Below, piece by piece: positions 3,970 through 37,445 of a stretch of 39,712 bases of DNA. This stretch comes from a virus. Numbering within the stretch: the first letter of the stretch is position 1; the number at the start of each line of letters is the position of its first letter. The stretch spans positions 1 through 39,712 of the IMG/VR virus record IMGVR_UViG_3300017783_000068; one strand, given 5' to 3'. The position numbers and the translations under genes are program-made. The notes beneath the pieces are model-generated. The model was given only the letters and a program-made list of their open reading frames with translations. It did not search any database and was not told the DNA's origin.

Positions 3970-4380
3970 ATGGCAAGGCCGTATGTGTGGGAAGTGGACG
4001 AAAACAAGAAAATTGTTGATAAGTCGATTTTTCAACAAATAGAAGATTTTGCTGCAACTGGCTTAACGAAAAAGCAAATCGCTTTTAATATGGGCATCAA
4101 TGAAAACACGTTTAATGCGTACCAAGAACGTGACGGGCGGGTAAGAGAAGCTTACGACACCGGAAAGGCCAAAGGCATACAGGCGGTAACAAACACGCTT
4201 TACAGCAAAGCCAAAGAAGGCGACAACACCGCAATGATTTTCTTTCTAAAGAACCGCGACCCTGAAAATTGGGAAGATGTGCAGAAACGTCACCATGCAG
4301 GGCATGACGGGGGGCCGGTTAAGATAACGAGCATTACGCGCGAAATTGTAGACAGCGTGGACGATGAACCTAGCGATTAA
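3970..4380 (+). CDS. terS: Terminase small subunit
   Basis: DNA-recognition subunit of the packaging motor. The N-terminal half carries a helix-turn-helix (LTKKQIAFNMGINENTF, about residues 33-49). It is followed by the family signature KEGDNTAMIFFLKNRDPENW (about 88-107), typical of small terminases that precede PBSX/Terminase_3-type large subunits. GAGG lies eight bases before the ATG. The last 17 bases overlap the TerL start in another frame, so the pair is translationally coupled. Length (136 aa) is normal for the family. Confidence 0.9.
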   Translation: MARPYVWEVDENKKIVDKSIFQQIEDFAATGLTKKQIAFNMGINENTFNAYQERDGRVREAYDTGKAKGIQAVTNTLYSKAKEGDNTAMIFFLKNRDPENWEDVQKRHHAGHDGGPVKITSITREIVDSVDDEPSD

Positions 4381-5596
4381 AACCCCGCGCTGGTGTAAGC
4401 CGTTAATCGAGCCGCCAGCGCTGTTAGCCGCTTATCTTGGTGCAAAGGGTGGGCGTGGTTCTGGTAAATCTCATTTCTTTGCCGAAAAAGTTGTTGAAGA
4501 AATGGTGGCCGACCCTGATGTTTGCATTGTCTGTATACGAGAGATTCAAAAATCGCTAAAGTTTTCAGCCAAAAAACTGATTGAGCAAAAAATACGTGAT
4601 CTAAAAGTCAGCCATTTGTTTGAGGTGACGCTTAACGAGATTAAGCGCAAGAGTGGCGAAGGCATTTGCATATTTCAAGGGATGCAAGATCATACAGCAG
4701 ATTCTATAAAATCGCTTGAGGGCTTCAAATACGCATGGGTTGAGGAAGCGCAAAGCATGAGCGCTAGATCACTCGAATTATTAGGCCCGACCATCAGGAT
4801 GGAAGCTAGTCAAATTTGGTTTAGCTGGAACCCTGACCAGCCAGACGACCCCGTGGAGAAGCTATTCGCCAAAGCTGCGAACGATGAAGATTTAGTTCTT
4901 GTTCACGTTAATTTTAATCAAAATCCTTGGTGCACTAAGAAGCTCAAAAAAGAAGCCGAGCGGCACAGAAGGCGCGACCCTGACACCTACGGGCATGTTT
5001 GGCTTGGTGAGTTCAACACCAAATCGGATGATCAGGTTTTATGCGGTCGTTGGTCTATTGACGAATTTGCAGCGAATGACCAAGAATTTAACGGGCCATA
5101 CTTTGGCGCTGACTGGGGTTTTAGTGTTGACCCGACGACGTTAATTCGCTGCTGGGAAAAAGAAATCGTTTTATATATTGATCGAGAGGTCTACGGAAAC
5201 GGCGTTGAAGTAATCGACACCCCTCAGCTATTTGCGCAGATCGAAGGCAGCGAAAAAAGCGTTATTCGCGCAGACAACGCTAGGCCCGAATTAATCAGCC
5301 ACATGCAAAAGCATGGCTACCCAAAATTAATTTCTTGTCAAAAATGGAAAGGCAGCGTCGAGGACGGTATCACAACGCTGCGAAGCTTTGAAAAGATAGT
5401 GATCCACCCTAGTTGCGTGCATACTGCGGAAGAAGCTCGGCTTTGGAAGTACAAACGGGACGCAAAAACGAACGAAGTCTTGCCCGCTTTGATAGATAAA
5501 AACAATCATTGTTGGGACGCGGTTAGATATGCTATTGAAAAAATGATAAAAAGAGCTAATACTTTAAGTGAACTTTTGGCGGCTGCTGCCGGTTAA
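4364..5596 (+). CDS. terL: Terminase large subunit (ATPase-nuclease)
   Basis: Motor that pumps DNA into the prohead and cuts the concatemer. Walker A is GGRGSGKS (29-36), Walker B is YAWVEEA (123-129), and the coupling motif is SWNP (154-157). The RNase H-like nuclease acidic residues are visible as D250 (GADWGF), D304 (IRADNARPE) and D385 (HCWDAVRYA). Length (410 aa) and motifs fit the Terminase_3/PBSX-like family. The gene overlaps terS by 17 bases. It is unusual that the portal gene does not follow directly: about 8 kb of other structural genes intervene. Confidence 0.95.
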   Translation: MNLAIKTPRWCKPLIEPPALLAAYLGAKGGRGSGKSHFFAEKVVEEMVADPDVCIVCIREIQKSLKFSAKKLIEQKIRDLKVSHLFEVTLNEIKRKSGEGICIFQGMQDHTADSIKSLEGFKYAWVEEAQSMSARSLELLGPTIRMEASQIWFSWNPDQPDDPVEKLFAKAANDEDLVLVHVNFNQNPWCTKKLKKEAERHRRRDPDTYGHVWLGEFNTKSDDQVLCGRWSIDEFAANDQEFNGPYFGADWGFSVDPTTLIRCWEKEIVLYIDREVYGNGVEVIDTPQLFAQIEGSEKSVIRADNARPELISHMQKHGYPKLISCQKWKGSVEDGITTLRSFEKIVIHPSCVHTAEEARLWKYKRDAKTNEVLPALIDKNNHCWDAVRYAIEKMIKRANTLSELLAAAAG

Positions 5597-5616: not shown

Positions 5617-6081
5617 ATGGCATCAGGAATATTTAATATTGCGCGGGGCGGCGTAAACGAATTAGTCAATCAAGTAGCTTTAAGTACTCATGAATTGGTT
5701 GTGGTTCTGTTAAAAACAACAGAGTCTGACGATCTTTTACAGGAGCGAACGAATTTAACAGAAATACTGCAGGCGGCAGGAAATACAGAAGCAGACTTCA
5801 CAAATTATTCGCGCAAAGTTTTAACGACGACAGAGATCAACGCGCCGACGATTGATAACGGTGACGACTCCCGATCTTCTTTTGTTCCAGATATTGAATG
5901 GGCTGACGCAGGTGGGTCACTAAATAACAGTTTAGTAAAACTTATTATATGTCAGCGCCCTTTAAATCAAACGTCTACGGTGACATTTGTACCCCTTTGC
6001 CAGTACGATTTTATCGGCACGACGAACGGCACTTTACTGACAGCGAAAGCACCTGTAACTGGATTCTTTAAAGCCTCTTAG
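5617..6081 (+). CDS. Predicted virion structural protein
   Basis: 154 residues, preceded by AAGGGT seven bases before the ATG. From memory it resembles an uncharacterised phage structural family with the core TEADFTNYSRKVLT (about 57-70), then an aspartate-rich turn and a Trp-containing strand (DIEWADAGG), ending in GFFKAS. The predicted structure is mostly beta with no catalytic motif. First gene of the TerL-portal cassette, it is probably a head-surface or fibre-anchoring protein. The role is inferred from position; the family recognition is moderate. Confidence 0.6.
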   Translation: MASGIFNIARGGVNELVNQVALSTHELVVVLLKTTESDDLLQERTNLTEILQAAGNTEADFTNYSRKVLTTTEINAPTIDNGDDSRSSFVPDIEWADAGGSLNNSLVKLIICQRPLNQTSTVTFVPLCQYDFIGTTNGTLLTAKAPVTGFFKAS

Positions 6082-6092
6082 GAGCCTAAAAA

Positions 6093-6842
6093 ATGGCTAA
6101 ATTCTTTTTTGATCCAGCGGCTTATGCTGATGAAACAGATATACGAACGCTTGGCTGGCAAGCGCCGATCGGATTTTTTGCACGGACAGTTAACGGCATT
6201 AGAGTCTGGAAGGAAAATGCGCCAACATTTGTTTTTGGAACGGTTCCGAAAAACGTATATTTTAACGCGTTAGGGCCAATTGGCGCTTTCGATATTTTAC
6301 TAATACAGAATTTTGGGGTGTCTGTTCACGCTGACCCGCAATTAATTAACCCGATGCTTGGCGCAGGTTTATTTAATGAAGACCCACTAAGATCAGAAGC
6401 TTTGCATTTTGAAACTTTTTCTGATGTGCCGACTTATAACCCTAATAGTACCTATCCAGCGTCAAACATTGTTACCAACTCAATTGCAGGCGGGCTAGAT
6501 TCAACGGTCGCAACGGCGGTTCGCGCTTCGTTTGATGGTACAACTTGGCAAGTAAAAGCGTGGCAAGCGCCTGTTGATCAGTTGGAAGCAAACGAATCTT
6601 CAGCGACAATTGTACACACTGAAACGGTAAACGCTGGCTTTTTAGCAGATGGAAAAGTTATGCCATCGTTTACGTTTAGACCAAAAACAAACTTTGGTCT
6701 TTCGCTTTCAAGCATTAGCGTTGGCACCGATGGCGATCTAGCACCTTTTGTTGATGTGCCGCCACCAGTTATTACAGCCCCGACCAATCTAACTGTTTCA
6801 AATATTACGAGCAATAGCGCTGATTTAGACTGGGACGTTTAA
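6093..6842 (+). CDS. Structural/adhesin protein, N-terminal part; FN3 cut by stop
   Basis: 249 residues with a strong AGGAG ribosome site. Residues 1-225 are beta-rich and unrecognised, perhaps the particle-attachment part. After a proline linker (DVPPPVITAP) comes the beginning of a fibronectin type III domain, with strands A and B ending in SADLDWDV. Then TAA (6840-6842) stops the frame. The next codons in the same frame (TTT ATG TCT TTT GGC TAT GAG) give the expected FN3 strand C, so the domain continues past the stop. Either the product is truncated here, or this is the first part of a longer protein made by readthrough. Confidence 0.7.
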   Translation: MAKFFFDPAAYADETDIRTLGWQAPIGFFARTVNGIRVWKENAPTFVFGTVPKNVYFNALGPIGAFDILLIQNFGVSVHADPQLINPMLGAGLFNEDPLRSEALHFETFSDVPTYNPNSTYPASNIVTNSIAGGLDSTVATAVRASFDGTTWQVKAWQAPVDQLEANESSATIVHTETVNAGFLADGKVMPSFTFRPKTNFGLSLSSISVGTDGDLAPFVDVPPPVITAPTNLTVSNITSNSADLDWDV

Positions 6843-6845
6843 TTT

Positions 6846-7793
6846 ATGTCTTTTGGCTATGAGATAGAGCTTAAAAACTTAAACACTGGCGAAACTCAGT
6901 ATATTGCTGGAAGCGAAAGCACTTCAGGGCCGCTCAACGTAACCGAAAGCAATGGCGTTTTGTCTGTCACCACAGACGGAACTTATGATTTCAGTGGTAT
7001 CAAGGCGGCAGTCTGGAAGGACGAGCTAGATTACTCAGAGCCAGCAGGTCAAGCGCCAACGGGTAATTATGCAGACAATAGAGATGTTGTACTTGATGAT
7101 CAAGTGACGCTAGGAAATCGCCCTCGATCTTGGAAAGGGACAGTCAAAGGCAAGCTCGACCCTCTCGTAAACAGGACAGAGTCTATGTATGCTACGTGGT
7201 GGCAGCAGTTTAGTTGTGACTTAGAAGACCCTGCCTTTTTCACAACTAATAATCGTTCCGATAAATTTGCACGAGTCTGGGATGACAGTAACGGCAACGG
7301 TACTCGTGTTTCGTGGACTAAAATGCATCTCACTTACAGTGATGCTAATGATACAGATTGGGAAGGTATGAATTTTGTACCTAATACGTGGACTCGAATG
7401 GAATTGTGGGTTACGCCAACGACGATTAAGGCGTTGCAAGATGGTGTTGTGGCTCATGATATTAGTGATCAAGTTGATCAAGACTTAACGAAAGACCTTT
7501 TCTGGGCGCAGGTTGGTTACGACATGAGCCAAACTGTACATGCTATTCAGTCATTTAATTGGTGGTTGAGTGATCTGTACCAACTAGACACCCCCGCTCG
7601 CGTAGAAATATCTGATTCTCCAACTTGGAATAACGGTCAAATTAAGCGCTACGTTCAAGACGTAATAAGCGCAGATGCAACAACTATTCAGGCGAATTTA
7701 AATCTATCTGACTTGACAGGCAGCACATACGTTTACGTTGTTGACGAGAACAACAATGTTATGAACGAAAACGGCGTGTCAGTAGGAGCGTAG
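6846..7793 (+). CDS. Adhesin middle part: FN3 strand segment plus lectin-like module
   Basis: 315 residues in the same frame as the preceding gene, one codon after its TAA. No good ribosome site precedes ATG 6846. Residues 1-27 (GYEIELKNLNTGETQYIAG) look like FN3 strands C-E that belong to the half-domain upstream. The rest (about 28-315) is a tryptophan-rich beta-sandwich module of concanavalin/LamG style (WTRMELWVTPTTIKALQDG), followed by a small Ig-like end (ARVEISDSPTW ... YVYVVDENNNV). This end type is known from marine bacterial and phage surface proteins. The frame ends with TAG 7791-7793, and open sequence continues in frame to the next ATG at 7812. Confidence 0.65.
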   Translation: MSFGYEIELKNLNTGETQYIAGSESTSGPLNVTESNGVLSVTTDGTYDFSGIKAAVWKDELDYSEPAGQAPTGNYADNRDVVLDDQVTLGNRPRSWKGTVKGKLDPLVNRTESMYATWWQQFSCDLEDPAFFTTNNRSDKFARVWDDSNGNGTRVSWTKMHLTYSDANDTDWEGMNFVPNTWTRMELWVTPTTIKALQDGVVAHDISDQVDQDLTKDLFWAQVGYDMSQTVHAIQSFNWWLSDLYQLDTPARVEISDSPTWNNGQIKRYVQDVISADATTIQANLNLSDLTGSTYVYVVDENNNVMNENGVSVGA

Positions 7794-7811
7794 GGACGAT
7801 GGGATCATAAC

Positions 7812-9635
7812 ATGGCTGTAACTGTACCTTTAGACCAAAGCACTAGCTATGAAGCGCGCGTTCGTCGCACGTATACGGTTAACGGCGTTGTCATGTATTC
7901 GCCGTGGTCAAATATTCAAACTTTTACGTCCTTAGTCAGTACAAATACTGAAATAAACCTATCTACTTTAAACGAAAGCTCAGCAGTTAATGACTTTGTT
8001 TTTGAGGTCGGCATAAACGCGCCAGTGATAACGCTAAATGGCGGCAATGAAGTAGATCATGTGCTCGGGATGCCTTGGGTCGAATTAGGCTTTACAGCTT
8101 CAGACATTGAGGATGGCGACCTGAGCGCAAGCGTCGTTATAACAGGCACAATAAACGAAAACGAAAACAGCTATCAAACGCTAACGTATTCTGTTACAGA
8201 TTCGGACGGAAACACTACTCAGATAGAAAGAATTGTTGCGGTAGCGCCAATTTTAGCGCCTACATCGTTTGATGTGCGTTATAAGACTCAATCTGACCCA
8301 GATTTCACAATCGTTACAGGCGTTATAGATTCTGACTTATCATTAACAGGTTTGGCTACTGATGAGACATATAGCTGGGGCGTAAGAGGCGACAACAGCG
8401 GCGCAAAAAGTGATTGGGTGAACGGCCAAGACTTTTTAGTTTCTTCGACTTTGCCAGTGACAATAAATCTTTCTACACTGCTAGAAACGAGCGAGGTATT
8501 TAGCTTCGTATTTGAAGCTGGCGTCAATATTCCAGTGCTTACGCTTATCGGCGGCAATAACGTCACTCACTCACTTGGCACGCCTTGGGTAGAGTTAGGT
8601 TTTACTGCGATAGATGCCGAGGACGGTGATATAAGCGCAAGCGTTGTAATCACTGGAACGATTGACGAAAACGAAAACAGCTACCAGCTATTAAATTATT
8701 CTGTTACAGATTCTGATGGCAATACAGCAGAGCAAGAGCGGCGCGTTGCAGTCACAGAGTTTTTAAATGCGGCTACGTTCGACGTAGGTTACAAAGAGCA
8801 AGGCGAAACAAGCTACACAGTAATAGAAAGCCTTACTGACTCAGATTATGCGCTGACAGGGCTAACAAATAACGAAACCTATAACTGGCGCGTAAGGTCA
8901 GTAAACGGGAATGTGCGCAGCGATTGGGTTAATGGTCAGGATTTTCTAGCCTTTGAAGACCCACCAATTGAAATAAATTTCAATACTGTTATTGAGAAAA
9001 GTTCAGTCAATGAATTTACTGTTGAAATCGAAGACGGGCCTATAACTGTTTTATTTACGACAGTTCAAGAGTCTTGCCAAGTAGATGAATTTGTTTTTTC
9101 TGTTGTCGATCCTGATAATGTTGTAACGCCAACAGAATTTGAGGTTGAAATAAATAATTTAACGGCAGGGACTAGCCAGCTAATTGCTGCAAGCAGCACA
9201 AGCCTTGCCTTGGCCGGTCTCGACCCTTATCAGCTTTACAGGATACGGGTTCGCGGCGTGTTTACCCTATATTTCAGTGCTTGGACAGAATTTTTAACTT
9301 TTTACACCCGCCCTGTAGTCTCAGGGTACGGCGAAAGCGATTATTTCACAGCGCCGATAGCGTCGGAAACTGTAAGCATTGATGTAAGTGACTTTGATTT
9401 TGATCCAAACGGCGAAGATTTATCAGGGCCGGTTAATAGCAATGTCGCGGGCGTTGATGTTGAAATATTAGGCTTAACGTATCCTGCTGAAATAAATAAC
9501 AATGCGTGGTATCTTGAAAATCCGTTTGAAGGGTTTATGCAGATGTTCCAAGACGATTCGCTAGACCAGCAGATAATATTCAAGGTAACAGATGATAATT
9601 TGACAGAAACGCAAGTTTATGGTTTCAGGAGATGA
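7812..9635 (+). CDS. Multidomain Ig/FN3 adhesin-like virion protein
   Basis: 607 residues in the same frame as the two ORFs before it. It opens with FN3 strands F-G (STSYEARVRRTY, SPWSNIQTFTS), so it starts in mid-domain. Then come two exact-length 170-residue repeats (41-210, 211-380). Each has a linker motif (INLSTLxExS), a DUF5011/HYR-like Ig domain (GxPWVELGFTAxDxEDGD; YSVTDSDGN) and an FN3-like domain ending SDWVNGQDFL. Two further linker motifs follow (387-431), then a third FN3 (440-500) and a unique beta-rich end. The ribosome site is weak (TGGGA). Probable role: an extended fibre or appendage on the virion. It overlaps the next gene's first possible start (ATGA). Confidence 0.7.
   Translation: MAVTVPLDQSTSYEARVRRTYTVNGVVMYSPWSNIQTFTSLVSTNTEINLSTLNESSAVNDFVFEVGINAPVITLNGGNEVDHVLGMPWVELGFTASDIEDGDLSASVVITGTINENENSYQTLTYSVTDSDGNTTQIERIVAVAPILAPTSFDVRYKTQSDPDFTIVTGVIDSDLSLTGLATDETYSWGVRGDNSGAKSDWVNGQDFLVSSTLPVTINLSTLLETSEVFSFVFEAGVNIPVLTLIGGNNVTHSLGTPWVELGFTAIDAEDGDISASVVITGTIDENENSYQLLNYSVTDSDGNTAEQERRVAVTEFLNAATFDVGYKEQGETSYTVIESLTDSDYALTGLTNNETYNWRVRSVNGNVRSDWVNGQDFLAFEDPPIEINFNTVIEKSSVNEFTVEIEDGPITVLFTTVQESCQVDEFVFSVVDPDNVVTPTEFEVEINNLTAGTSQLIAASSTSLALAGLDPYQLYRIRVRGVFTLYFSAWTEFLTFYTRPVVSGYGESDYFTAPIASETVSIDVSDFDFDPNGEDLSGPVNSNVAGVDVEILGLTYPAEINNNAWYLENPFEGFMQMFQDDSLDQQIIFKVTDDNLTETQVYGFRR
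7932..8951 (+). repeat. Two tandem 510-bp coding repeats (Ig + FN3 module)
   Basis: Residues 41-210 and 211-380 of the protein encoded from 7812 align without a gap. PWVELGFTA, DENENSYQ/NENENSYQ, YSVTDSDGN and SDWVNGQDFL recur exactly 170 residues apart. This is a tandem module duplication. The nucleotide sequence has diverged, so it is not recent. Confidence 0.85.
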
Positions 9636-9637
9636 TA

Positions 9638-10255
9638 ATGAGAGCAGTAAGTTACGCGCAACGTCGAGCAGAACAAACAGACAAAACGCTTACAGGCGGT
9701 GATTTAATTGCAGTTGAAATAGGTCAGCGCAGCCATGTAATAACGGTTGACGAACTGAACCAGCTTTTGTCTGGCGCTACTACTTTGCAGGGCAGGCAGG
9801 AAGCGTTTCGAGGTTGTCGCGTTGGTCTAGATTCAGTGGCAAATAATTATTGGGGCAATTTGTTCTCAGTGGAGTGGTCGAAAGTCGATTTTGATTCCGA
9901 CTCAATATACAACGGCTTAGCAGCGACAGCTTTAGTCGCCCCTTCAGATGCGACAAAGGTTAGAGTACAAGGCAACTTTAAAATCGCAGGATTTACTTCG
10001 CCCGACACTATCTATACGACAGTAGAGGTAATTTTAAGAAAAAATGACGAAGAAATAACTTCAGATGTAAAAAAAGGAAAAGGAGGCGACACGGCGGCAG
10101 AGTTAGGCGATGTTTTTTATGTAGACAGCGGGCCGATAGATGTTGCTCCGAATGACATTTTTACCTTTTATTTAAAGCTAAGCAACTTTGGCTCTATTTT
10201 ATTGAATCCAGAGGGTACATGGGGTTCGCTTGAAGTTGTGGAACAGTTACCGTGA
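9638..10255 (+). CDS. Predicted fibre/structural protein, jelly-roll-like
   Basis: AGGAG at 9627-9631 is six bases before ATG 9638, so this start is preferred to the overlapping ATG at 9632. 205 residues. The N-terminal 40 look like a short docking region. The rest has the alternation of a C1q/TNF-like trimeric jelly roll (KVRVQGNFKIAG, TTVEVILRKNDEEI, DSGPIDVAPNDIFTFYLKL), a fold found in many phage fibre tips. No enzyme motif. It lies between the Ig/FN3 protein and the subtilase, with coupled stop/start overlaps on both sides. Role inferred. Confidence 0.5.
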   Translation: MRAVSYAQRRAEQTDKTLTGGDLIAVEIGQRSHVITVDELNQLLSGATTLQGRQEAFRGCRVGLDSVANNYWGNLFSVEWSKVDFDSDSIYNGLAATALVAPSDATKVRVQGNFKIAGFTSPDTIYTTVEVILRKNDEEITSDVKKGKGGDTAAELGDVFYVDSGPIDVAPNDIFTFYLKLSNFGSILLNPEGTWGSLEVVEQLP

Positions 10256-11541
10256 TTATAGTTGTAACCCATAAGGGCCAAGAAAACGCTTTTATAGATC
10301 TATTGTCTAATCTTGATGTCAAATTTGAGCAGCGCAGAACAAAGCATATTTTTTATGTGCATGATATTGACAAAGAAAACCCTATTTTAAGTCACTCATG
10401 CGTAAAAGATTTTCAGGAAAATGTAGAATTTAATCCTGAAGATTTTCTTATGGGTGCGCAGCAGATAGATATTGATAAAAGCCAGTTTGCTAAGTTTATG
10501 CGTATGCAGCCTGTAAGCCCTCCTCTAAAAACATCGCCTTGGCAAATTGCTGATGCAATTAGGCGCGTCAGTCCGTGGACTAACTCAAACAACAGAAAAG
10601 CAAGCAGCACGTTTAAATGTAAACGCACTGGTGAGGGTGTGGATATTTACGTTTTCGACACGGGCATGTCGTGTGATGATGAAGAATTTGAAGATCGAGC
10701 ATTTGACGTGGACGGGCTGCGTTATCCTGAAAAACTAATGACTCGTTGGTGGGGTGGTTTTCATGGATCAATGGTCGCTGCGGGAGCGGCAGGAAAAGTA
10801 CACGGCATCGCTAAAAAAGCGACTTTATGGAACAAGTTAGCGCTGTATTCTGGAGGCCGTACAGCCGCTTTTCTTTTCGAGCAAATGGAAAAAGTCCACG
10901 CCCATATTGACTCAAGAATAAGCCTAAATCGTCCCGCTATAGTCAATATGTCTTTAGGTGGGCCACCTATGCCCCAATTAAAAGCAGAAATGGAAGAAAT
11001 GCTCGATAAAGGCGTTATTTTTGTTGCTGCTGCGGGCAATTTAAGTATCACGCTATCAGATAGCGGATTCGGCGCAGTTACTTTTGAGCCTGCTAGTTAT
11101 GCATTTGATGGATTCATAACAGTCGGTGCAACTAATTTAGAGCGAAATATTGCCTTTTTTAGTAATTATAACCATCCAAGAAGAATGATTTACGCAGGAG
11201 GAGAGGTAGCAAGTGGTAAAACAATGACAAGCTATTTACCAGATGCACCGCTAAAAGATACGTTTATCAGTGGAACTTCATTTGCAAGCCCTTTAGTTGC
11301 TGGGATTCTAGCTTGTATGCTTCAAGGCCATAACCGTCCAACTAACCGAGCAGAAGCAGAAGCGGCTATCCAAGCCCTTTTAAAAAACGCAACAAAAAAC
11401 GTCATTAACCCAAGAGTAAAAGGCCGTCAATTAGGGTATGGCCCAGTTGAAATAGAAATGACAGAAGGCCAAAACTTACTGGCTTACCTAGACCCAAATA
11501 TTGAATTTGAGCTGATCGAAGGGCTGACTAAAAAGGTTTAA
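10252..11541 (+). CDS. Subtilisin-family (S8) serine protease
   Basis: 429 residues starting at GTG 10252, which overlaps the preceding stop (GTGA). The catalytic triad is visible: D136 in VDIYVFDTGM, H171 in GGFHGSMVAAG, and S343 in ISGTSFASPLVAG; the oxyanion asparagine is N263 in VAAAGNLS. Residues 1-100 look like an inhibitor-type propeptide (FIDLLSNLDVKFEQRR). There is no obvious signal peptide, so it is probably active inside the cell or carried in the particle rather than secreted. It sits inside the virion-protein operon, which suggests that it processes neighbouring structural proteins or acts on the host surface. Family certain; target unknown. Confidence 0.92.
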   Translation: MIIVVTHKGQENAFIDLLSNLDVKFEQRRTKHIFYVHDIDKENPILSHSCVKDFQENVEFNPEDFLMGAQQIDIDKSQFAKFMRMQPVSPPLKTSPWQIADAIRRVSPWTNSNNRKASSTFKCKRTGEGVDIYVFDTGMSCDDEEFEDRAFDVDGLRYPEKLMTRWWGGFHGSMVAAGAAGKVHGIAKKATLWNKLALYSGGRTAAFLFEQMEKVHAHIDSRISLNRPAIVNMSLGGPPMPQLKAEMEEMLDKGVIFVAAAGNLSITLSDSGFGAVTFEPASYAFDGFITVGATNLERNIAFFSNYNHPRRMIYAGGEVASGKTMTSYLPDAPLKDTFISGTSFASPLVAGILACMLQGHNRPTNRAEAEAAIQALLKNATKNVINPRVKGRQLGYGPVEIEMTEGQNLLAYLDPNIEFELIEGLTKKV

Positions 11542-11543
11542 TC

Positions 11544-11939
11544 ATGATTAAAGTATCAACGTTAATATTTGATGAAGGCTTGAGTAAGTTTTCAGAAGCT
11601 TTTCAAATCTGTGTCTGTCAAGGCGAGCCGTTAACTGCAAGCGACGTTAACAACACACTAAGCAGCGGTGGCAAGCGTGTAACGCCTTTTAAGACTTTTA
11701 ACGCGGGTGAAATAGCTATAGGTGATGGTCTTGAGTCAGAATCTAGGGCGATTACTATCCCTAACTCACTTTTTGATTCGTCAGTATTAGAAAATGTTTC
11801 GCTCGCTTCTGCTGACTTATATGTTGCTTGCATTGCAGGCGCTGACATACTATTAAAAAGTGATCAAGTGCAAAATCAGCAATTAGTGGTTGGTGCTACG
11901 CTTCAAGTCGATGCTTTTGAATACGGGATCAAGCAATGA
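11544..11939 (+). CDS. Predicted small virion protein (decoration/fibre family)
   Basis: 131 residues of unknown function. Its layout (N-terminal LIFDEGLSKFSEAFQICVCQGEP, then a GDGxxSxSRxITIP turn, V-x-x-x-x-x-A-x-x-Y-V-A, and a closing beta strand) resembles a widespread phage structural family. It also resembles the 122-aa protein at 12894-13262, so the two may be diverged paralogues. It is mostly beta. It follows the subtilase by two bases and overlaps the next start (ATGA). It may be a substrate or partner of the protease; that is inference. Confidence 0.5.
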   Translation: MIKVSTLIFDEGLSKFSEAFQICVCQGEPLTASDVNNTLSSGGKRVTPFKTFNAGEIAIGDGLESESRAITIPNSLFDSSVLENVSLASADLYVACIAGADILLKSDQVQNQQLVVGATLQVDAFEYGIKQ

Positions 11940-12544
11940 CAGAGATTGTTTTAGATACGGTCTACGAAAACAACAATCCTTTTTTGTTGGGCGTTCCTGC
12001 CGTTAATTTAACGACTCTGGCCGAAGCTGAACAGCTAAACCGCATAGAAGCGCATCCTAATATTTACACAATAGACGCTGCTGAAAGCGTCAATGAATTT
12101 GGTTCGTTTACGGGGCTTACGACTATTATCGCAAGCGAACGAGCTAACGATATTTATATTCCGTTAGAAGTTAATCAGATTCAAGACGGTACTTATCCTG
12201 TCACGTTCACGGCCAAAACTGCGAGCGGCTTAACTGTCACTAAAACGGTGACAATGACGGTCGGCACAGAGTTAAACGTTTTTTATGCAAGACAAGATGA
12301 ACAGTCTAGCGTCAATGAGTTTTTATTCTCAGTTGAGTCAAGCGGCACAGCATTAAGTAGTCAGTCTTTAACTTTAAGCACAGCGATTAGCGATAGCGCG
12401 TTGACGCTAAAAACAATTTTAAGTTCTGAGGCCGTTACGCTTCAGAGTTCGCTTAGTTCTTCAGTGCTTGGAGAGGATGAAGGGTTAGTATCTGACGATT
12501 TAGTAAATCAACTAAATCTAACAGCTTCAGATATAACCATTTAA
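11936..12544 (+). CDS. Ser/Leu-repeat structural protein, N-terminal part
   Basis: 202 residues. It has an Ig-like beta region (about 40-112, DGTYPVTFTAKT), then the linker motif LNVFYARQDEQSSVNEFLFSV (113-133; also present in four versions in the 7812-9635 protein), then a low-complexity Ser/Leu/Thr repeat (LTLSTAISDSALTLKTIL, LSSEAVTLQSSLSSS). The repeat is cut by TAA at 12542-12544. The same repeat style goes on in the same frame beyond the stop up to 12883. Either truncated, or extended by readthrough. Likely a fibrous part of the same appendage as the upstream adhesin. Confidence 0.6.
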   Translation: MTEIVLDTVYENNNPFLLGVPAVNLTTLAEAEQLNRIEAHPNIYTIDAAESVNEFGSFTGLTTIIASERANDIYIPLEVNQIQDGTYPVTFTAKTASGLTVTKTVTMTVGTELNVFYARQDEQSSVNEFLFSVESSGTALSSQSLTLSTAISDSALTLKTILSSEAVTLQSSLSSSVLGEDEGLVSDDLVNQLNLTASDITI

Positions 12545-12616
12545 TCAATAGCCGCAAGCGAAAACTTACAGCTAAGCTTATCCGTTAGCGATTCGCTTAT
12601 AAGTGAGTCGCAGCCA

Positions 12617-12883
12617 ATGCTTACAGATTCGCTTAGTGCAGCTTGCCAGCTAACAGAAAGCTTCATAAATCAGAAGCCGCGCGTAAACTCAGATCCTATA
12701 ACAGCAACGATTATTTTAGACAGTAGCGCCATAGGTCGCAGAGTAGAGCTTTATTCTGATAATATCGATCTAAGACTATTACTAAGCGACAACACGCCGC
12801 GTCCGCTAAATGTTCGCGAAGTGGATGCAGATAACATATACTTCAAATCAACAACGCCAGTAATAAAATTTAAAGACTTGTAA
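12617..12883 (+). CDS. C-terminal part of the Ser/Leu-repeat protein
   Basis: 88 residues from the first ATG after the in-frame TAA at 12542, with only a weak ribosome site. In-frame coding sense begins earlier, directly after the TAA (SIAASENLQLSLSVSDSL), and continues the Ser/Leu repeats. The rest (about 30-88) is a compact beta domain (ITATIILDSSAIGRRVELYS) ending at TAA 12881-12883. I regard it as the C-terminal piece of the gene starting at 11936 (948 bases, 316 codons including both stops) rather than an independent gene. Confidence 0.5.
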   Translation: MLTDSLSAACQLTESFINQKPRVNSDPITATIILDSSAIGRRVELYSDNIDLRLLLSDNTPRPLNVREVDADNIYFKSTTPVIKFKDL

Positions 12884-12893
12884 GGGGTTCAAA

Positions 12894-13262
12894 ATGGGCA
12901 AAAAAGTCTCAGATAGCGTATTAGATAACGGGCCTCAATACGTTAAAGATAATGTCACAGCCATGATTCTGACGGATGCAGAACCGTCAAGCCGAGCTGA
13001 TGCAATTGCAAATGCGCTGGTCACTGTGCCAATGTCTAGCACTGACATTACCGTGGGCGATGGCACTCCAAACGGGCGCGGGTTCGTGACTTCTGAAAAG
13101 CTAGATCAAGACGTTACAGCAAGCGGCAATCGGGGCCACACTTCGCTAATATCTGCGGGCGAATTAATGGTGGTTACCGTCGCCAACGTTGTCGAGCCGA
13201 TAAACTCAGGGAACAAGGTTGATGTTCTTTCGTGGAGCATGACCGTTTTAGACCCTGTTTAA
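12894..13262 (+). CDS. Predicted small virion protein
   Basis: 122 residues, good ribosome site (AAGGGG). Unknown function. Contains VGDGTPNGRGFVT and a run of short beta strands (GELMVVTVANVVEPI), similar in layout to the 131-aa protein at 11544-11939, with which it may be homologous. This kind of protein is common near capsid and portal genes. No catalytic motif. A head decoration or fibre-base role is likely from position only. Confidence 0.5.
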   Translation: MGKKVSDSVLDNGPQYVKDNVTAMILTDAEPSSRADAIANALVTVPMSSTDITVGDGTPNGRGFVTSEKLDQDVTASGNRGHTSLISAGELMVVTVANVVEPINSGNKVDVLSWSMTVLDPV

Positions 13263-13274
13263 TAGGTTCTTCAA

Positions 13275-13589
13275 ATGGAATTAATTTTCAACGGTTACAA
13301 CAATACGGCATCTGTGCAGGTTACACGTTATGACCCGCTAACAGAAACGGAAGAGTCTTTCCCGTTTGAAGACGTTACCAGCGTCGAGGCTTATATTGTC
13401 GAGCTTGATCAAACGATCACTACAGGCATAGATAAAAGTCAGGGTGACGGTATTTTGAAGTTTCTATGGGGTAACTTGGGTTTACCTAAAGGCCGCTATT
13501 GTGTGCGATTGATTATTAATGATCCTGTGAACGGCACGCAGATTTTGACGCATGAGTCACAGCGCAAGCTTGGGTTAAGGGTTTTATAG
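13275..13589 (+). CDS. Predicted beta-sandwich virion protein
   Basis: 104 residues, unrecognised. Alternating hydrophobic strands (SVEAYIVELDQTITTG, GRYCVRLIINDP) suggest a small beta-sandwich like those of phage appendage and adaptor proteins. Its stop (TAG) touches the portal ATG directly, so it is co-translated with the head genes. Last member of the cassette between TerL and portal. Role unknown. Confidence 0.5.
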   Translation: MELIFNGYNNTASVQVTRYDPLTETEESFPFEDVTSVEAYIVELDQTITTGIDKSQGDGILKFLWGNLGLPKGRYCVRLIINDPVNGTQILTHESQRKLGLRVL

Positions 13590-14924
13590 ATGAAGGTCAC
13601 GCGCAGACAGTTAAAGCTTAATATGGGTTCGCCCTCGCTTGAGCGGGAAAGGCAAACGAACTTAGGCAATTTAGGAATATCAGGCGGCAGCTATACCGGC
13701 GACAGTATGCATGATATTTTTAAAGATTTTGGCTACCCTGAGAACGTAAGCTTTCAGCAGCTTTGGCACATGTATAGGCGGCTGGGTATTGCTAAAAATG
13801 CCTGCAATTTGCCAGTGCAATCAACGTGGGCGCAGCACCCTAAAATCAAAGGCACAGACCAGTTTAATGCAGAACTTGAGCAAATACCTGAATTGATCTC
13901 AAGGATAAAGGCCCTAGACAAGCGCCAGCGCGTCGGAAGATATGCAGCCCTATTTATGCGCGTGGCAGATGACAAGAAGCCCAGCGAAGAACTAGAAACC
14001 GGCTTAAACGGTGTCGCCTCGCTCGTTGGTATGACTCCAATCTATGAGGGCCAGCTTAGGGTTAACGAAACAGACAATGACCCGCAAAGCAAAAACTATG
14101 GCTTGCCTAAAATGTATCATTTTCAGAGTAGCGGGCAAGGCAACCGAAACGAGCAGGCCAGCGCATCGCTATCTATTCACCCTAGCCGGTTAATTATCGC
14201 AGCAGAAGACGCAGACAACGGCGGCATATATGGAACGCCTGCGATTGAAGGATGCTTTAACTCGCTAATGGATATTCGCAAGATTATAGGCGCAGGTGGT
14301 GAGGGTTTCTATCGAAACGCAGCGCAATCAATCGTGTTTGAGCTTGATGAAAGCGGCGGCGCGTCTGCTGATTTAGGTATGCTAAAAGACTTTAACGATA
14401 ATGCCGATGATTTTATGCGAAACAGGCGTCGCCGGTCATTATTTGCACCACACATGAAAGCGAGCACGCTAGACAGCAATCTAGTAAGCCCTAAAGACTT
14501 TTTCATGAACGCCCTAAATGATGTGGCTGCAAATACTGGCATCCCTGCAACGATTCTAATTGGCCAGCAAACGGGGCGGCTTGCTTCAGGCGAAGACAGC
14601 GACCATTTTTTAGCCATGACTAAATCAAGACAAGAGAACTGGGCTACTCAGCTTTTAAGTTCTGTTTTAGATTGGTTTATAAAATACGGCATATTGCCTG
14701 CAAGCAAATACGAAATAACATTTGCCGACCCGCTTGAGCTATCCGATGAAGCTAAGCTAGAAAGCTGTCAGAAAATGGCAGAAATTAACTCTAAACAGTT
14801 TAATTCAGGACAAGAGCCGGTATTTAGTGCAGAAGAAATACGCAAGCAAGCCGGTTATGATGATACTGTAGAGATTGATTTGCTAGAAAACGAAGGCGAA
14901 ACGCTAGATGGCGAAGAAGACTAA
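13590..14924 (+). CDS. Portal protein (DUF1073-type)
   Basis: Forms the dodecameric ring through which DNA enters the head. 444 residues. Recognised by the order of segments typical of the DUF1073/Mu-like portal family: LWHMYRRLGIAKNACNLPV near residue 60, YAALFMRV (about 120), GTPAIEGC (about 211), the helical stem region, and NDVAANTGIPATILIGQQTG (about 310-330), then an acidic C-terminus. AAGGG precedes the ATG. The last 17 bases overlap the MuF-like gene. Confidence 0.88.
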   Translation: MKVTRRQLKLNMGSPSLERERQTNLGNLGISGGSYTGDSMHDIFKDFGYPENVSFQQLWHMYRRLGIAKNACNLPVQSTWAQHPKIKGTDQFNAELEQIPELISRIKALDKRQRVGRYAALFMRVADDKKPSEELETGLNGVASLVGMTPIYEGQLRVNETDNDPQSKNYGLPKMYHFQSSGQGNRNEQASASLSIHPSRLIIAAEDADNGGIYGTPAIEGCFNSLMDIRKIIGAGGEGFYRNAAQSIVFELDESGGASADLGMLKDFNDNADDFMRNRRRRSLFAPHMKASTLDSNLVSPKDFFMNALNDVAANTGIPATILIGQQTGRLASGEDSDHFLAMTKSRQENWATQLLSSVLDWFIKYGILPASKYEITFADPLELSDEAKLESCQKMAEINSKQFNSGQEPVFSAEEIRKQAGYDDTVEIDLLENEGETLDGEED

Positions 14925-17721: not shown

Positions 17722-18789
17722 ATGATTTTTGATCAAAAGATAGTAGGTAATAGCCAACTAGCGAAAAAGCAGTGGGATGAAGTTATTCGTTCACGTGATG
17801 CAATGAACTTGCACGAACAAGCTGTGCATAACCAGATCATGCAAGCACATGGCTTTAAAGTTAACGAAGGCTTAGTGCCGCAAGACGTTTACCAAGAAAT
17901 GGACGCACAAACGGTTGAGGTTATGACCTCTGACGATGGCGACACGTTCTTGAATGATATGCTTCCACAAAGCCGGTCGGTAAACATTGGCAAGCTGGTT
18001 AGCAAATACCGCAAAGCTTCAGATGCAGGTATTGCTAAAAACAGCATGACAGGTCAAACGGGTTCAATTATTGATCAGGTTGAGTATTCTTATGATGGTA
18101 CGCTAGTGCCTATCGTTGATACCGCTTTCGGTCGTAACTGGCGCGAATATGCTGCACAGCGTTCTGAAGGTTTCGACGCTCTGATTGATGATCAGCGCGA
18201 ATGTACTAAAACGATTCGCCGGAAGCTTGCTGATAACTTCCTTGACGGTATCACTGACGATAACGGCCAGTATATTACTGTTGATAGCATTTCGTGGAAG
18301 GGCATTAGAAACGACGACCGCGTTGCAACGGTTGATCTTTCAGGCGGCGGCTTAAATTTCGATTTCACAGAGGACACTAAAACTTATGAGCAAATCGAAG
18401 CAGCGTTTAAGAAAGTTCGTGATGTTTTATGGATCGACAATAACGCAGAAATGCCCGCTACTTATTACGTGAGCCGACAGGTTGCAGCAAACTTAGAGCG
18501 TAATTCTAGCGAGTTTGCATCGAGTGAAAACAAAGTTTTACAGCGACTAGCTGCGCTGCAAGGTGTTGCGGCAATCAAGTCAACGTCAAAGCTTACGGGT
18601 AATCAAATGTTTGCTATCCCGCTAGGGTCTGGCATGGTTCGCCCTGTTGTTTGTATGGGTGTTAATACTGTTGCTATGCCTCGCGCTAAGTATAACGATG
18701 ATTATACTTTTATGATCATGGGCGCAATCGGTTACGAAGTTAAAACCGATTACAACGGCAACAACGTAGCTCTTTACGCGGCAGGTTAA
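17722..18789 (+). CDS. Major capsid protein
   Basis: 355 residues with the strongest ribosome site of the head operon (AAGGAG), fitting a high-copy product. Begins with a helical N-arm, followed by segments typical of HK97-fold coat proteins of this type (DGTLVPIVDTAFGRNWREY, about 130-148; the long helix around CTKTIRRKLADNFLDGI; a conserved GSGMVRPVV and final beta strands GAIGYEVKTDYNG). Position after protease/scaffold and decoration genes and before a terminator supports the call. Confidence 0.85.
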   Translation: MIFDQKIVGNSQLAKKQWDEVIRSRDAMNLHEQAVHNQIMQAHGFKVNEGLVPQDVYQEMDAQTVEVMTSDDGDTFLNDMLPQSRSVNIGKLVSKYRKASDAGIAKNSMTGQTGSIIDQVEYSYDGTLVPIVDTAFGRNWREYAAQRSEGFDALIDDQRECTKTIRRKLADNFLDGITDDNGQYITVDSISWKGIRNDDRVATVDLSGGGLNFDFTEDTKTYEQIEAAFKKVRDVLWIDNNAEMPATYYVSRQVAANLERNSSEFASSENKVLQRLAALQGVAAIKSTSKLTGNQMFAIPLGSGMVRPVVCMGVNTVAMPRAKYNDDYTFMIMGAIGYEVKTDYNGNNVALYAAG

Positions 18790-19027: not shown

Positions 19028-19042
19028 ACTTTGGATAATAAG

Positions 19043-19321
19043 ATGGCAGATACAAGACCGAATATCACTTTACCCTTCAATCAGTGGGTCAATTTGTACG
19101 CAGAGACAGGCATTGCCGTAGGCACTCGAATTGCTGTTGAAAATGTCGGTTCTGCTGATGTTTATTTAACTGTTTCGCCTACTGAGCCGCCTTTAAATTA
19201 CGATGCTTATTGCATTGTTAGGCGTGACGGGCTTCCCTACGCTAATTCACAGGGCGATTCTGGCGCGTGGGCGCTGTGTTCGCACACTGAAGGCAAGCTT
19301 AACGTTCGGGAGATTGATTAA
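19043..19321 (+). CDS. Predicted small structural protein
   Basis: 92 residues from ATG 19043 (a TTG at 19031 is in frame but lies in the terminator tail). Contains NQWVNLYAETGIAVGTRI, a pattern seen in a family of small phage proteins of unknown role found near head and tail genes, and short beta strands (VENVGSADVYLTVSP). It begins a three-gene accessory set between capsid and head-completion genes and overlaps the next ATG (TAATG). Confidence 0.6.
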   Translation: MADTRPNITLPFNQWVNLYAETGIAVGTRIAVENVGSADVYLTVSPTEPPLNYDAYCIVRRDGLPYANSQGDSGAWALCSHTEGKLNVREID

Positions 19322-19866
19322 TGGCTGACGGTTTCGGGCCTTACTTTGTTTTTTCTCAAAATGGCGGCAGTCAGTGGGATACAGAAGATCCAAAAGTCGG
19401 CTTTATTGATTACAACGATACGGCGACAGCAATCACACCGATTGTAATGCTTGAGGATGACTGGACAACGATCACGAATGACGGGCTAGGGCCGTTTACT
19501 AACAAAACTTTTCGGCCAGAATATGCCGACGAATTAATGATAAATAACGGCCAGTTTGATTTTAGCCAAATCCCTCTAGGTTATGGTGTCGATATTCGTC
19601 AAGATTTTAGCGTAACGCCAACGATTAACAGAACGCTTGTTGAAGCGCGGTATCAAATAGGCGCAGGGCCAGCGTACACCCTAGAGACTACGGTAGGCGA
19701 ACTGGTGCAAGGTTCAGGGCGGTTTTACAGGTTTTCACTCTATTTGCATTATGTTTATATGGGCGATACGAACACGCGAGATAATCCGTTGTCGTTTCAG
19801 TTAAAAGCATCTTCAGATTGTACAGTTGTTAACGCGGGATGCGTTGTCAGGGTATCTAGATCATGA
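19321..19866 (+). CDS. Predicted beta-rich structural protein
   Basis: 181 residues with many aromatic beta strands (GFGPYFVFSQNGG; FYRFSLYLHYVYMGDT). Looks like a trimeric beta-sandwich of fibre or head-surface type; no known motif. Coupled to both neighbours by overlapping stop and start codons (TAATG upstream, ATGA downstream), so likely a subunit of the same assembly as the LamG-like protein encoded next. Confidence 0.5.
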   Translation: MADGFGPYFVFSQNGGSQWDTEDPKVGFIDYNDTATAITPIVMLEDDWTTITNDGLGPFTNKTFRPEYADELMINNGQFDFSQIPLGYGVDIRQDFSVTPTINRTLVEARYQIGAGPAYTLETTVGELVQGSGRFYRFSLYLHYVYMGDTNTRDNPLSFQLKASSDCTVVNAGCVVRVSRS

Positions 19867-21140
19867 TAAAAATTTATGGCAGAGGCGCAGCGGTTTACAT
19901 TGAAAACGCTAACGGCGCACAACACCTTTTTTCTCTGCAAGCGGTTATTGATAGTAATGGCACGTCTTTATCAATAAAAGACATTCCAAAAGCAATTGAA
20001 ATCGTATCGGGCGTTAATCATGATGTTTTTGTAAAAGAAGACGATACGCCATACACGGGAACGCCAACGCAAATATGCGACCAGCTAAACGCTGTTTTTA
20101 ATGCAACAGGTAGCCATGACGGTGAGCCACCAGTTATAACGTCTAATCTTTCGATTGCATCTGTTGAGAGTCACACTATTAATTACGAATTAACGGCAAA
20201 TTTTGGCGTTGGTTATGAATGGGCAAACTTGCCGGAAGGCGTCACAACAGTTAACGGAAATGTGCGGAAGCTAATAGGCGGTGCTAATTTATCCAGCGGC
20301 GTTTATGTGATTACTGCGCGAGCTATTAACCTGTTTGGTTTTGATGAAAAAGACATCACGCTAACAATTAGCGATCCGCCTTTTGCTGATACTAAATCTA
20401 TCGAGTTTCAGAACAATGATTACATGGGCGCAAACGCTGCGCTTGTTGAGCCTGTATTCGGTAGAACGGGCAACGGTTCGGGCGTTAATGATGCTTGGAA
20501 ACTTTCACTTAAGTTTAAGGCTGGCACAGCGTCCAATCAAAATCAGACTATATTTTATTTTGGCGCTCAAGACGTAGCGAACGGTGGACAAATACAATTA
20601 AAGTTTGATGGTAGCGCATTGAGAAAATGCTTAGTGCTTAGATACGGTTCTAACAATAACCGGCTAGAATTAAGAACGCCTGATTTTAGTGTGCCTGTTA
20701 GCGGCTGGATTAGTGTAATCGTTGACTATGATGGCGGGACAACTGGCAGCGCATCGAATGAAGTAAGCGACTATTATAGCCGGTTCAAAATAGCAATTGA
20801 AAACGTAGACCAAGCCCTAACGGGTACGCACCAAAACTTCGGCTATTCAGGGCAAATTGAGGGTGTAAATTATCGAATAGGCCGGTGGAATAACGGCCAA
20901 AGCTTGCGCAACGGTTGTAAGGTTAACGAGATTGCCGCGTGGTCTGGCGCTCAAATGCCGACTAACTCAGAGATTTATAATAGCGGCGTAAACTTTGATT
21001 TTTCAACGCTTACTGATTCGCCTTTGCACTGGTATCGCTGCGGCGACGACGACAATTATCCTATTATTACTGATGTAATTGGCAACGCGCATTTTCAAAT
21101 GTATAACATGACAGCGGCCAGCATTGTTAACGACGTTTAA
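19863..21140 (+). CDS. LamG/concanavalin-like head or fibre protein
   Basis: 425 residues. The N-terminal 80 are probably an attachment domain (MIKIYGRGAAVYIENANGA). Residues 88-172 look like an Ig/cadherin-like domain (ANFGVGYEWANLPEGV, VYVITARAINLFGFDEKD). Residues 175-425 form a LamG/ConA-like lectin sandwich (SIEFQNNDYM at its start, WKLSLKFKAG, VSGWISVIVDYDGG, then NEIAAWSGAQM and HWYRCGDDD near the end). Such domains often bind glycans. Location between capsid and head-completion genes suggests a head-surface adhesin rather than a tail fibre. Role inferred. Confidence 0.6.
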   Translation: MIKIYGRGAAVYIENANGAQHLFSLQAVIDSNGTSLSIKDIPKAIEIVSGVNHDVFVKEDDTPYTGTPTQICDQLNAVFNATGSHDGEPPVITSNLSIASVESHTINYELTANFGVGYEWANLPEGVTTVNGNVRKLIGGANLSSGVYVITARAINLFGFDEKDITLTISDPPFADTKSIEFQNNDYMGANAALVEPVFGRTGNGSGVNDAWKLSLKFKAGTASNQNQTIFYFGAQDVANGGQIQLKFDGSALRKCLVLRYGSNNNRLELRTPDFSVPVSGWISVIVDYDGGTTGSASNEVSDYYSRFKIAIENVDQALTGTHQNFGYSGQIEGVNYRIGRWNNGQSLRNGCKVNEIAAWSGAQMPTNSEIYNSGVNFDFSTLTDSPLHWYRCGDDDNYPIITDVIGNAHFQMYNMTAASIVNDV

Positions 21141-32264: not shown

Positions 32265-32872
32265 TGATTTTGTTTAAGCGAAGATCGAAGCCAGATTACA
32301 CAGACAGCTTAGCTAGGTATTTGCCGAATGACCGGCTTTTTGCTGCTAAGAATGTCGAGGGTTCAAACCTTAGAAGCCTGTTAAACGGTTTATCTGCTGA
32401 GAACTTTAGAACTAACGGTTATTTGCGCGAATACCTTGATCAGATTATCCCAGACAAGACAGAAAAGTTTTTAGGTGAATGGGAGTCGGCGCTAGGTATT
32501 CCAGATTGCTGCTTTACGGGAACGGGAACTATTGAAGATCGGCGGCGTGACGTTTTAGTAAAGTTGGCAAGTTTAGGCGTGCAAACTGAGCAAGATTTTA
32601 TCGACCTTGCCGCAATGTTTGGCGTTTCTATTACGATAGAAAAAGGCAGCGTTTCGGGCGGGTTTCCGTTGCAATTCCCAGCGTTGTTTTTTGCTACTGC
32701 TGAAAATGCACGTTTTACTATATTTATTAACGTGACGGTGCCCTTGCAGGTTACTTTTCCTTATTCGTTCCCTGTGCCTTTTGGTACTAGAGAAACGGGC
32801 TTGATAAAGTGTATATTTGAGAAACTAAAACCGGCCAATTGTAATTTGGTAATAAGACAGGTGACAGAATGA
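32264..32872 (+). CDS. Mu gp48-like (DUF2313) baseplate protein
   Basis: 202 residues, TAATG overlap with the preceding gene. YLPNDRLFAAKNVEGSNLRS at the start and WESALGIPDCC (about 72-82) then ERRDVLVKLASLG-like IEDRRRDVLVKLASLGVQTE match the DUF2313/YmfQ family between baseplate J and tail fibre genes. Likely connects fibre to baseplate. Confidence 0.85.
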   Translation: MILFKRRSKPDYTDSLARYLPNDRLFAAKNVEGSNLRSLLNGLSAENFRTNGYLREYLDQIIPDKTEKFLGEWESALGIPDCCFTGTGTIEDRRRDVLVKLASLGVQTEQDFIDLAAMFGVSITIEKGSVSGGFPLQFPALFFATAENARFTIFINVTVPLQVTFPYSFPVPFGTRETGLIKCIFEKLKPANCNLVIRQVTE

Positions 32873-34308: not shown

Positions 34309-34317
34309 GAGTAAGAC

Positions 34318-37431: not shown

Positions 37432-37445
37432 GTTTTGATTCCTTC

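Follow-up and report, generated by a model that had tools for sequence, protein, structure and literature searches.

Results

The genes lying between the TerL and portal genes of IMG/VR virus record IMGVR_UViG_3300017783_000068 (positions 1–39,712, the whole 39,712-nucleotide stretch analyzed, hereafter the window) are, on balance, probably an accessory module that encodes a virion appendage and is passed as one block from tailed phage to tailed phage; its parts would be an adaptor, a filament, a latch and a protease. The gene order o1-o2-o4-o5-subtilase was kept in the window and in five other IMG/VR phages (L018, L024, L064, L067 and L090) of siphovirus and podovirus type, whose cassette proteins had 22–47% identity to those of the window. 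Because this ordered set recurs with different packaging and head genes, its terminases and portals included, it appears to be an exchangeable accessory module; the first-pass annotation, which had proposed a dedicated appendage system and a search for the same gene set in other phages, was borne out to this extent. Pairwise identities among the five compared phages were 23–41% for o2, o4, o5 and o6 and 40–61% for o1, and the compared cassettes matched each other at the DNA level over short stretches only.

In the window, the cassette is bordered by TerL on the left (4364..5596, + strand; phrog_3717, E = 9e-57) and by the portal protein on the right (13590..14924, + strand; phrog_146, E = 1e-71). 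Eight to ten intervening genes had been claimed, and we counted 11 ORFs (o1–o11, 5617–13589), all on the + strand. Their tight coupling by overlapping codons was found at o4/o5, o5/o6 and o7/o8 (ATGA or GTGA), while the remaining junctions are gaps of 2–72 nt. No internal promoter or terminator in the cassette scored above shuffled sequences. The adjacency of terminase and portal, taken as normal in the earlier reading, was the rule in the examined core relatives KLEP17-4, Lbo-JY16 and phi1422, but genes intervene elsewhere, as they also do in Vibrio phages 1.076 and 1.016 and Aeromonas Avpd1.

The surroundings of the cassette differed among the other phages. L024 has the cassette between TerL (phrog_979) and portal (phrog_145), whereas the layout in L018 is cassette-TerS-TerL-portal (phrog_156). 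In N4-like L064 the cassette adjoins a tail-type gene of 1,890 aa, and in the T7-like podophages L067 and L090 it is located where the tail-fibre gene is expected, following internal virion proteins and lysozyme in L067. A tail sheath was sought in eight related records and found in none, so a contractile tail is established for the window phage only. The first 25 kb of the window gave zero megablast matches to phages, o6 and the portal, each used alone as a protein query, had no hit among viral contigs, and o2 and o3 had zero matches in 50,697 annotated phage records. Literature searches on phage subtilases, split FN3 and head fibres with proteases found nothing describing the cassette gene set.

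An FN3 domain divided between adjacent genes

The o2 protein (6093..6842, + strand), with homologues in the five other phages, has an N-terminal domain of unknown fold and ends in FN3 strands A–B (6777..6839, + strand), its last 20 residues matching PF00041 positions 2–21. The FN3 continues from strand C in the next gene, and the division, which the first-pass annotation had overlooked, falls at the same residue in 6/6 phages. In the window the conserved break reads TAA TTT ATG (6840..6848, + strand), with an SD-like GGGA in the Trp-Asp codons just upstream. When the o2 tail was joined to the head of the next gene and compared with PF00041 (84 positions; cut-off 25 bits), matches covered positions 2–82 in the window and L024, 3–80 in L018, 2–79 in L064 and 4–72 in L067 and L090, with E values from 2e-7 to 7e-4. 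Scores were over the cut-off for the window (31.3 bits), L024 (34.0), L067 (30.7) and L090 (30.9), and under it for L018 (20.3) and L064 (22.4). The nine other window junctions, joined likewise, gave no domain. A model of the joined L024 chain, with the stop codon read as Gly, had an FN3 fold at residues 217–315 (Z = 15.4 over 95 residues, rmsd 1.7), and the pLDDT of its strands A–B was about 93.

A split at one place in six phages suggests that the two proteins lock by sharing a domain. Judged from sequence, a natural split FN3, in which the products of two adjacent genes complete one fold in trans within one fibre, is plausible though somewhat short of probable. The C-terminal A–B strands of o2 would supply what the N-terminal FN3 of the following protein lacks (o4 or, in the window, o3 with o4), and o2 and the next chain would be locked through strand complementation.

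Two other explanations were weighed at this junction. Phage FN3 and Ig domains are often dispensable decorations, and the cassette may be an ordinary fibre or adhesin cassette at an unusual place with a hitch-hiking protease, its FN3 split being a tolerated break with both truncated ends non-essential. On this account, the conserved Trp codon, TGG, would double as part of a ribosome-binding site. The tail-fibre position in T7-like phages agrees with an ordinary fibre, and an SD-like GGGA, GGA or GGGG lies in the Trp codon context just ahead of the next ATG at 6/6 junctions; on the other hand, all six phages break at one and the same residue despite an o2 identity of 23–36% (pairs measured), and both halves keep FN3-type sequence, as ends without a use would not be expected to do. 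We regard this explanation, ordinary cassette and tolerated break together, as rather unlikely. The second explanation is programmed readthrough or frameshifting, which in a minor fraction of the molecules would extend o2 into the following ORF, so that a rare long protein contains the complete FN3. The reading-frame relation and the stop codons at the break differ among the six phages, and 4/6 junctions are in one frame with a single codon separating stop from ATG, which agrees with this explanation; but L064 has tandem stops (TGA TAG), L018 a TAATG overlap in another frame, and L090 a 4-nt gap in another frame, unlike its sister L067, and this explanation is very improbable. Stop-codon recoding was also considered as an origin of the split and rejected, as stop usage in the window is unremarkable (TAA/TGA/TAG = 23/14/7) and the relatives break at this place with other stops and frames.

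The window FN3 is in three pieces (o2, o3 and o4) because o3 (6846..7793, + strand) is inserted. Present among the six phages in the window only, o3 has a head corresponding to FN3 strands C–C′, with residues 1–28 occupying positions 1–30 of an o4 profile built from relatives only; beyond this head it is an inserted module without a database match. The remaining strands form the head of o4 (7812..9635, + strand). Owing to this insertion, a latch in the window would have to engage three chains, or else it may be defective.

By Pfam and profile matches, o4 is a putative Ig/FN3 filament protein. The Ig and FN3 domains announced for the cassette are indeed present in it, as two PF16403 Ig domains (E = 6e-29) and a PF00041 FN3 (E = 2e-11). 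Further FN3 matches inside o4 span strands C–G only, so half-FN3 units may be usual and need no partner. The ETD-type hairpin repeats of o4 were tried as strands A–B of these internal half-FN3s, with a slight gain in two phages and none in the window. The description of o2 and o3 as lectin-like was not upheld: Pfam gave nothing for either protein, the o2 model is of low quality in its N-terminal part, and a PDB profile search with o2 gave FN3-type matches only.

Putative adaptor, fibre-like protein and subtilase

The first gene, o1 (5617..6081, + strand; family phrog_26662), encodes a small fibre-adaptor-like protein with 46 IMG/VR relatives at 36–49%. Its AF2 model (pLDDT 92.8) resembles ten phage baseplate, fibre and neck chains with Z scores of 10.2–4.9, all above unrelated entries. 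These include the T4 baseplate (Z = 10.2), the Bxb1 tail tip (8.5), the GP4 fibre/fibre-tail adaptor (7.3) and the Sf14 neck (6.4). Foldseek against the PDB was weak (best E = 0.18). PRMT-type barrels and antibody domains, which were in the fold list at Z = 3–4.5, were discounted. Small proteins of the cassette had been called decoration-like, a label that does not suit the fibre-adaptor-like fold modelled for o1.

The fibre-like protein o5 (9632..10255, + strand) contains a domain homologous to residues 469–606 of PDB 9euf. The jelly roll suggested for o5 is plausible but was not confirmed, the profile matching one domain of a protein of solved structure (PDB 9euf/9eul, E = 4e-27), the GP-PDE domain-containing protein. 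In that protein, also named ORF58, the o5-like domain is part of a larger protein whose enzyme domain, a phosphodiesterase, is in the same chain, whereas the cassette enzyme is a separate subtilase, and the full architectures differ. The source of 9euf/9eul is presumably Staphylococcus phage phi812, judging by the neighbouring entry 9euj.

The subtilase reported in the cassette is o6 (10252..11541, + strand; S8, proteinase K-like), which matches PF00082 over positions 2–288 of 288 (E = 1.5e-24). Its best PDB relatives by profile are keratinase, aqualysin and proteinase K. The triad and the oxyanion Asn are intact (D136, H171, S343 and N263), the N-terminal region is propeptide-like, and the C-tail YLDPxIxFExIxGL is conserved. 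The catalytic residues are kept in a 12-row subtilase alignment, except for a change of Asp to Glu in L018, which would weaken an essential protease role.

An o5-type gene is located directly upstream of the subtilase in 15/15 cases with a subtilase profile E below 1e-60, whereas the remoter subtilases L097, L098, L101 and L103–L106 (E = 1e-26 to 1e-50) are without one. Among the 15 are Xanthomonas phage Mallos (Bradleyvirinae), in which gp44 (putative tail protein) and gp45 (S8 protease) lie on the same strand like o5 and o6, and Variovorax phage V45iii, which has the same pair. The Mallos gp45-type subtilase is homologous to o6 (28%) and directly follows the o5-type domain. Unlike in the cassette, o1, o2 and o4 were not found in Mallos and V45iii, and the pair ends the tail-tip genes, before lysis. 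In general, the pair without the other cassette genes is mostly found at the tail-tip end of siphophages (Mallos and several contigs). Mallos gp44 is longer than o5 and includes a second segment, of FRGA type. The Mallos paper (PMC9316219) was found to give no virion proteomics.

Kind of appendage and proposed mechanism

The head fibres proposed by the first-pass annotation were not specifically supported. The tail-fibre position in podophages (T7-like and N4-like placement), the tail-tip o5-subtilase pair and the resemblance of o1 to fibre and baseplate adaptors favour an adhesin/enzyme appendage of fibre type. A neck fibre is possible, given the Sf14 neck protein among the o1 matches and the neck fibres of Anabaena myophage A-1(L), which are built from several genes (gp82-gp81-gp80) and self-assemble head to tail via N-terminal beta-hairpins (PMC10966104). 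The passages on the A-1(L) fibre mention neither a protease nor a split FN3, and the likeness lies in this multi-gene build. An alternative in which fibres assemble on the capsid or neck and are trimmed by the subtilase that the phage itself encodes would also agree with the borders of the cassette in both the window and L024, terminase and portal, and with Streptomyces phage Galactica, where an o1 relative lies together with a "minor tail protein" between the capsid and head-tail adaptor genes. The place of the cassette nevertheless varies among phages and is tail-fibre-like in podophages, and the o5-o6 pair without the rest sits at the siphophage tail tip; we consider a head or neck system quite unlikely.

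In the fibre-type appendage that we favour, o1 would be the adaptor fixing the appendage to the virion, with tail or neck more likely than the capsid surface, and o2 and o4 would form the Ig/FN3 filament. The subtilase o6 may be a partner enzyme borne by o5, which would be the fibre domain at the distal end or on a branch. During assembly o6 would be kept inactive by its N-terminal region; at adsorption it would digest protein of the host surface, and it may trim the fibre as well. Maturation of the fibre by o6 proteolysis is possible, and a protease that is carried on the virion and attacks the host surface is at least as good an account. The TerL-portal interval would be merely a landing site in the window phage and L024.

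Completion of a beta-sandwich by strands of another chain is known from donor-strand complementation in chaperone-usher pili and from engineered FN3 fragment complementation. The cassette differs in that a natural FN3 is split over two adjacent phage genes, with complementation in our proposal only. Modular Ig/FN3 surface proteins, as in the cassette, are also found in Hoc and the gut-phage Ig-like adhesins (PMC13370021), which are single display proteins, whereas the cassette is a conserved adaptor-filament-protease gene set.

If the proposal is correct, the cassette would be an adsorption module, composed of adaptor, filament, fibre domain and protease, that can be plugged into myovirus, siphovirus and podovirus particles, and would show how host-contact machinery can be swapped among phages independently of tail type. 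The split FN3 would then be a genetically encoded non-covalent latch in a mobile adhesin-protease appendage across all tail types, and would offer a ready-made pair for joining proteins as well as a question of fibre assembly that can be answered. A virion-borne subtilase would extend phage surface enzymes beyond glycan-cutting ones.

Remaining genes of the cassette

Downstream of the subtilase, the small cassette protein o7 (11544..11939, + strand) has homologues in L018, L024 and L064. The repeat protein o8 (11936..12544, + strand), with homologues in L018 and L024, has a terminal hairpin of Ig/PKD type and a single Pfam match (He_PIG, E = 0.04). The ORF o9 (12617..12883, + strand), found in the window only, is in the frame of o8 at a distance of 72 nt, and o10 (12894..13262, + strand) is a small protein without a match; neither had homologues among the fetched relative loci tested. 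The last ORF, o11 (13275..13589, + strand), encodes a small protein that is also present near the equivalent place in L024 and L018.

Gene block between TerL and the portal gene

The window is an IMG/VR virus record of 39,712 bases. Gene order and profile matches give the phage a layout of the contractile-tail type: it has TerS-TerL, a portal gene of phrog_146, genes for head morphogenesis, major capsid, tail sheath, tape measure and baseplate, and a usual tail fibre and its assembly gene at 32869-34710. Eleven ORFs (o1-o11, the cassette), all on the + strand, separate the end of TerL (5596) from the start of the portal gene (13590). The first-pass annotation had taken adjacency or near adjacency of TerL and portal as the norm; in phages with related core genes, such as KLEP17-4 and Lbo-JY16, both genes are adjacent. 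Within the block, curated cut-offs were passed by two PF16403 Ig domains and an FN3 domain in o4 (7812-9635), and by a full-length subtilase in o6 (10252-11541).

The same gene set in other phages

With o1 (5617-6081) as query against viral contigs, 46 relatives were obtained, and the complete set was found, in order, among their contigs; the collection searched is metagenomic, and its records are mostly incomplete. Recurrence of the set in other phages, proposed earlier as a check, was observed in order in L018, L024, L064, L067 and L090, the last three of which were found by searches with subtilase alignments. In L018, o1-o2-o4-o5-subtilase-o7-o8-o11-like genes are followed by TerS-TerL and a portal of phrog_156. 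In L024 (near copy: L031), TerS-TerL and three small genes precede o1-o2-o4-o5-subtilase-o7-o8-o11 and a portal of phrog_145, and the tail genes of L024 are of siphovirus type, based on the ORFs inspected. In L064, which is N4-like, 70 kb long and encodes a protein of 3,087 aa, the cassette has a tail-type gene of 1,890 aa and an endolysin on one side and a portal of phrog_1216 on the other; in the T7-like podophages L067 and L090 it comes after internal virion proteins and lysozyme. Across the five phages compared, pairwise protein identity was 23-41% for o2, o4, o5 and o6 and 40-61% for o1, and DNA similarity between cassettes was almost nil. Since the surrounding packaging, portal and tail genes belong to different families, the conserved set is a transferable, exchangeable unit, and a position by TerL or portal does not define it.

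A gene boundary inside an FN3 domain

The C-terminus of window o2 (6093-6842), ...APTNLTVSNITSNSADLDWDV-stop, supplies the first two strands (A and B) of an FN3 domain; strand C opens the next ORF. L018, L024, L064, L067 and L090 share this break, to the residue. When joined, the halves covered most of PF00041 (cut-off 25 bits) in all six phages, with scores of 31.3 (window), 20.3 (L018), 34.0 (L024), 22.4 (L064), 30.7 (L067) and 30.9 bits (L090); the separate pieces tested scored lower or not at all. Joining neighbouring genes at nine further window junctions produced no domain. For L024, a model of the joined chain in which glycine takes the place of the stop codon folds as FN3 (Z 15.4; pLDDT ~93 for strands A-B).

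The junction reads stop-NNN-ATG in one frame in the window, L024 and L067, TGA TAG ATG in L064, and TAATG in L018; L090 has a 4-nt gap, and in both L018 and L090 the two ORFs are in different frames. Because frames and stops vary, a fused readthrough product cannot be the conserved feature. What is conserved is the gene boundary inside the FN3 domain, which divides the domain between two genes. L067 and L090 may be one lineage, so the independent cases number about five. Immediately ahead of the next start codon lies a G-rich, Shine-Dalgarno-like sequence that includes the TGG codon of the conserved Trp, an arrangement suggestive of coupled translation.

The window carries an additional ORF, o3 (6846-7793), after the break. 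Its residues 1-28 correspond to the o4 start of relatives, and window o4 begins at position 31 of an o4 profile built without it, which shows an insertion within the FN3 domain: on this comparison a module of ~290 residues has entered the domain and left it in three pieces. The module had no match among the phage records searched.

Strands A-B are likewise missing from the FN3 matches inside o4, and half domains may be a more general trait of the cassette proteins. In four phages, o8 begins with a lone Ig/PKD-type terminal hairpin (GTYPVSITATRDDGLTVTRNATVTI and similar; L018:9590, L024:14894, L067:11011, L090:9005), a possible second split domain; the corresponding hairpin is internal in window o8 (11936-12544), at 12179-12265.

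The o5-subtilase pair

An o5-type gene (window o5, 9632-10255) lies directly upstream of the subtilase, mostly overlapping or abutting, in 15/15 phages of the subtilase clade, defined by profile E below 1e-60, a threshold chosen after the data were seen. Within this clade the pair is invariant. These phages include Mallos (gp44-gp45) and Variovorax V45iii, and in several siphophages the pair comes after the tail-tip protein. More distant subtilases from the same searches had no o5-type gene upstream; one distant contig (L098:7539-10973) carries two subtilase genes in tandem, without o5.

The window subtilase retains Asp136, His171, Asn263 and Ser343. Among the subtilases compared, the catalytic Asp is replaced by Glu only in L018 (gene at 7969-9195), whose enzyme is possibly inactive. 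A ~95-residue N-terminal region precedes the catalytic domain, and the C-terminal tail YLDPxIxFExIxGL is common to nearly all subtilases of the clade. The o5 profile matched (E 4e-27) one domain in 9euf/9eul, solved structures of a GP-PDE domain-containing protein; by analogy, o5 would serve as an enzyme mount, the enzyme here being a separate chain.

Fold of o1 and proposed working

The AlphaFold2 model of o1, built from 37 sequences, had a mean pLDDT of 92.8. Each of its ten best VIA-align neighbours was a phage chain from a baseplate, tail fibre, fibre adaptor or neck, with Z scores of 10.2 for the T4 baseplate, 8.5 for the Bxb1 tail tip, 7.3 for the GP4 fibre/fibre-tail adaptor and 6.4 for the Sf14 neck among them, and unrelated folds ranked next at Z 4.5 and below. 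Matches to predicted viral structures were chiefly uncharacterised phage proteins and tail-collar fibre proteins. Because Foldseek E-values against the PDB were weak, a fibre/baseplate adaptor-type fold is a good lead rather than proven.

We infer that o1 would anchor an appendage, the shared FN3 domain would lock o2 to o4, o4 would supply an Ig/FN3 filament, and o5 would present the subtilase, which may digest host surface protein or trim the fibre. The positions of the cassette and the pair in podophages and siphophages favour a location on the tail or neck rather than on the capsid surface. Phage A-1(L) offers a close working parallel in its neck fibre, which several genes encode and beta-hairpins join (PMC10966104).

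Additional features of the window

The Ig-FN3 units of o4 are duplicated (a stretch of 222 nt recurs in the cassette with 71% DNA identity), and short hairpin repeats lie between these units in o4 and related proteins (xVxLGxAxETDxALxV in L018). Only 72 nt and a single stop (12545-12616) part o8 from o9 (12617-12883), both in one frame; o9 may represent the detached end of a longer o8. An acetyltransferase-like gene (phrog_8270/2725) and a 425-aa ORF with no match are among the genes at 19031-21140, which separate the major capsid gene (17722-18789) from the neck genes. The helicase/primase gene begins at position 13, and the minus strand of 36599-38627 encodes a RecT-like annealing protein and an exonuclease VIII-like gene.
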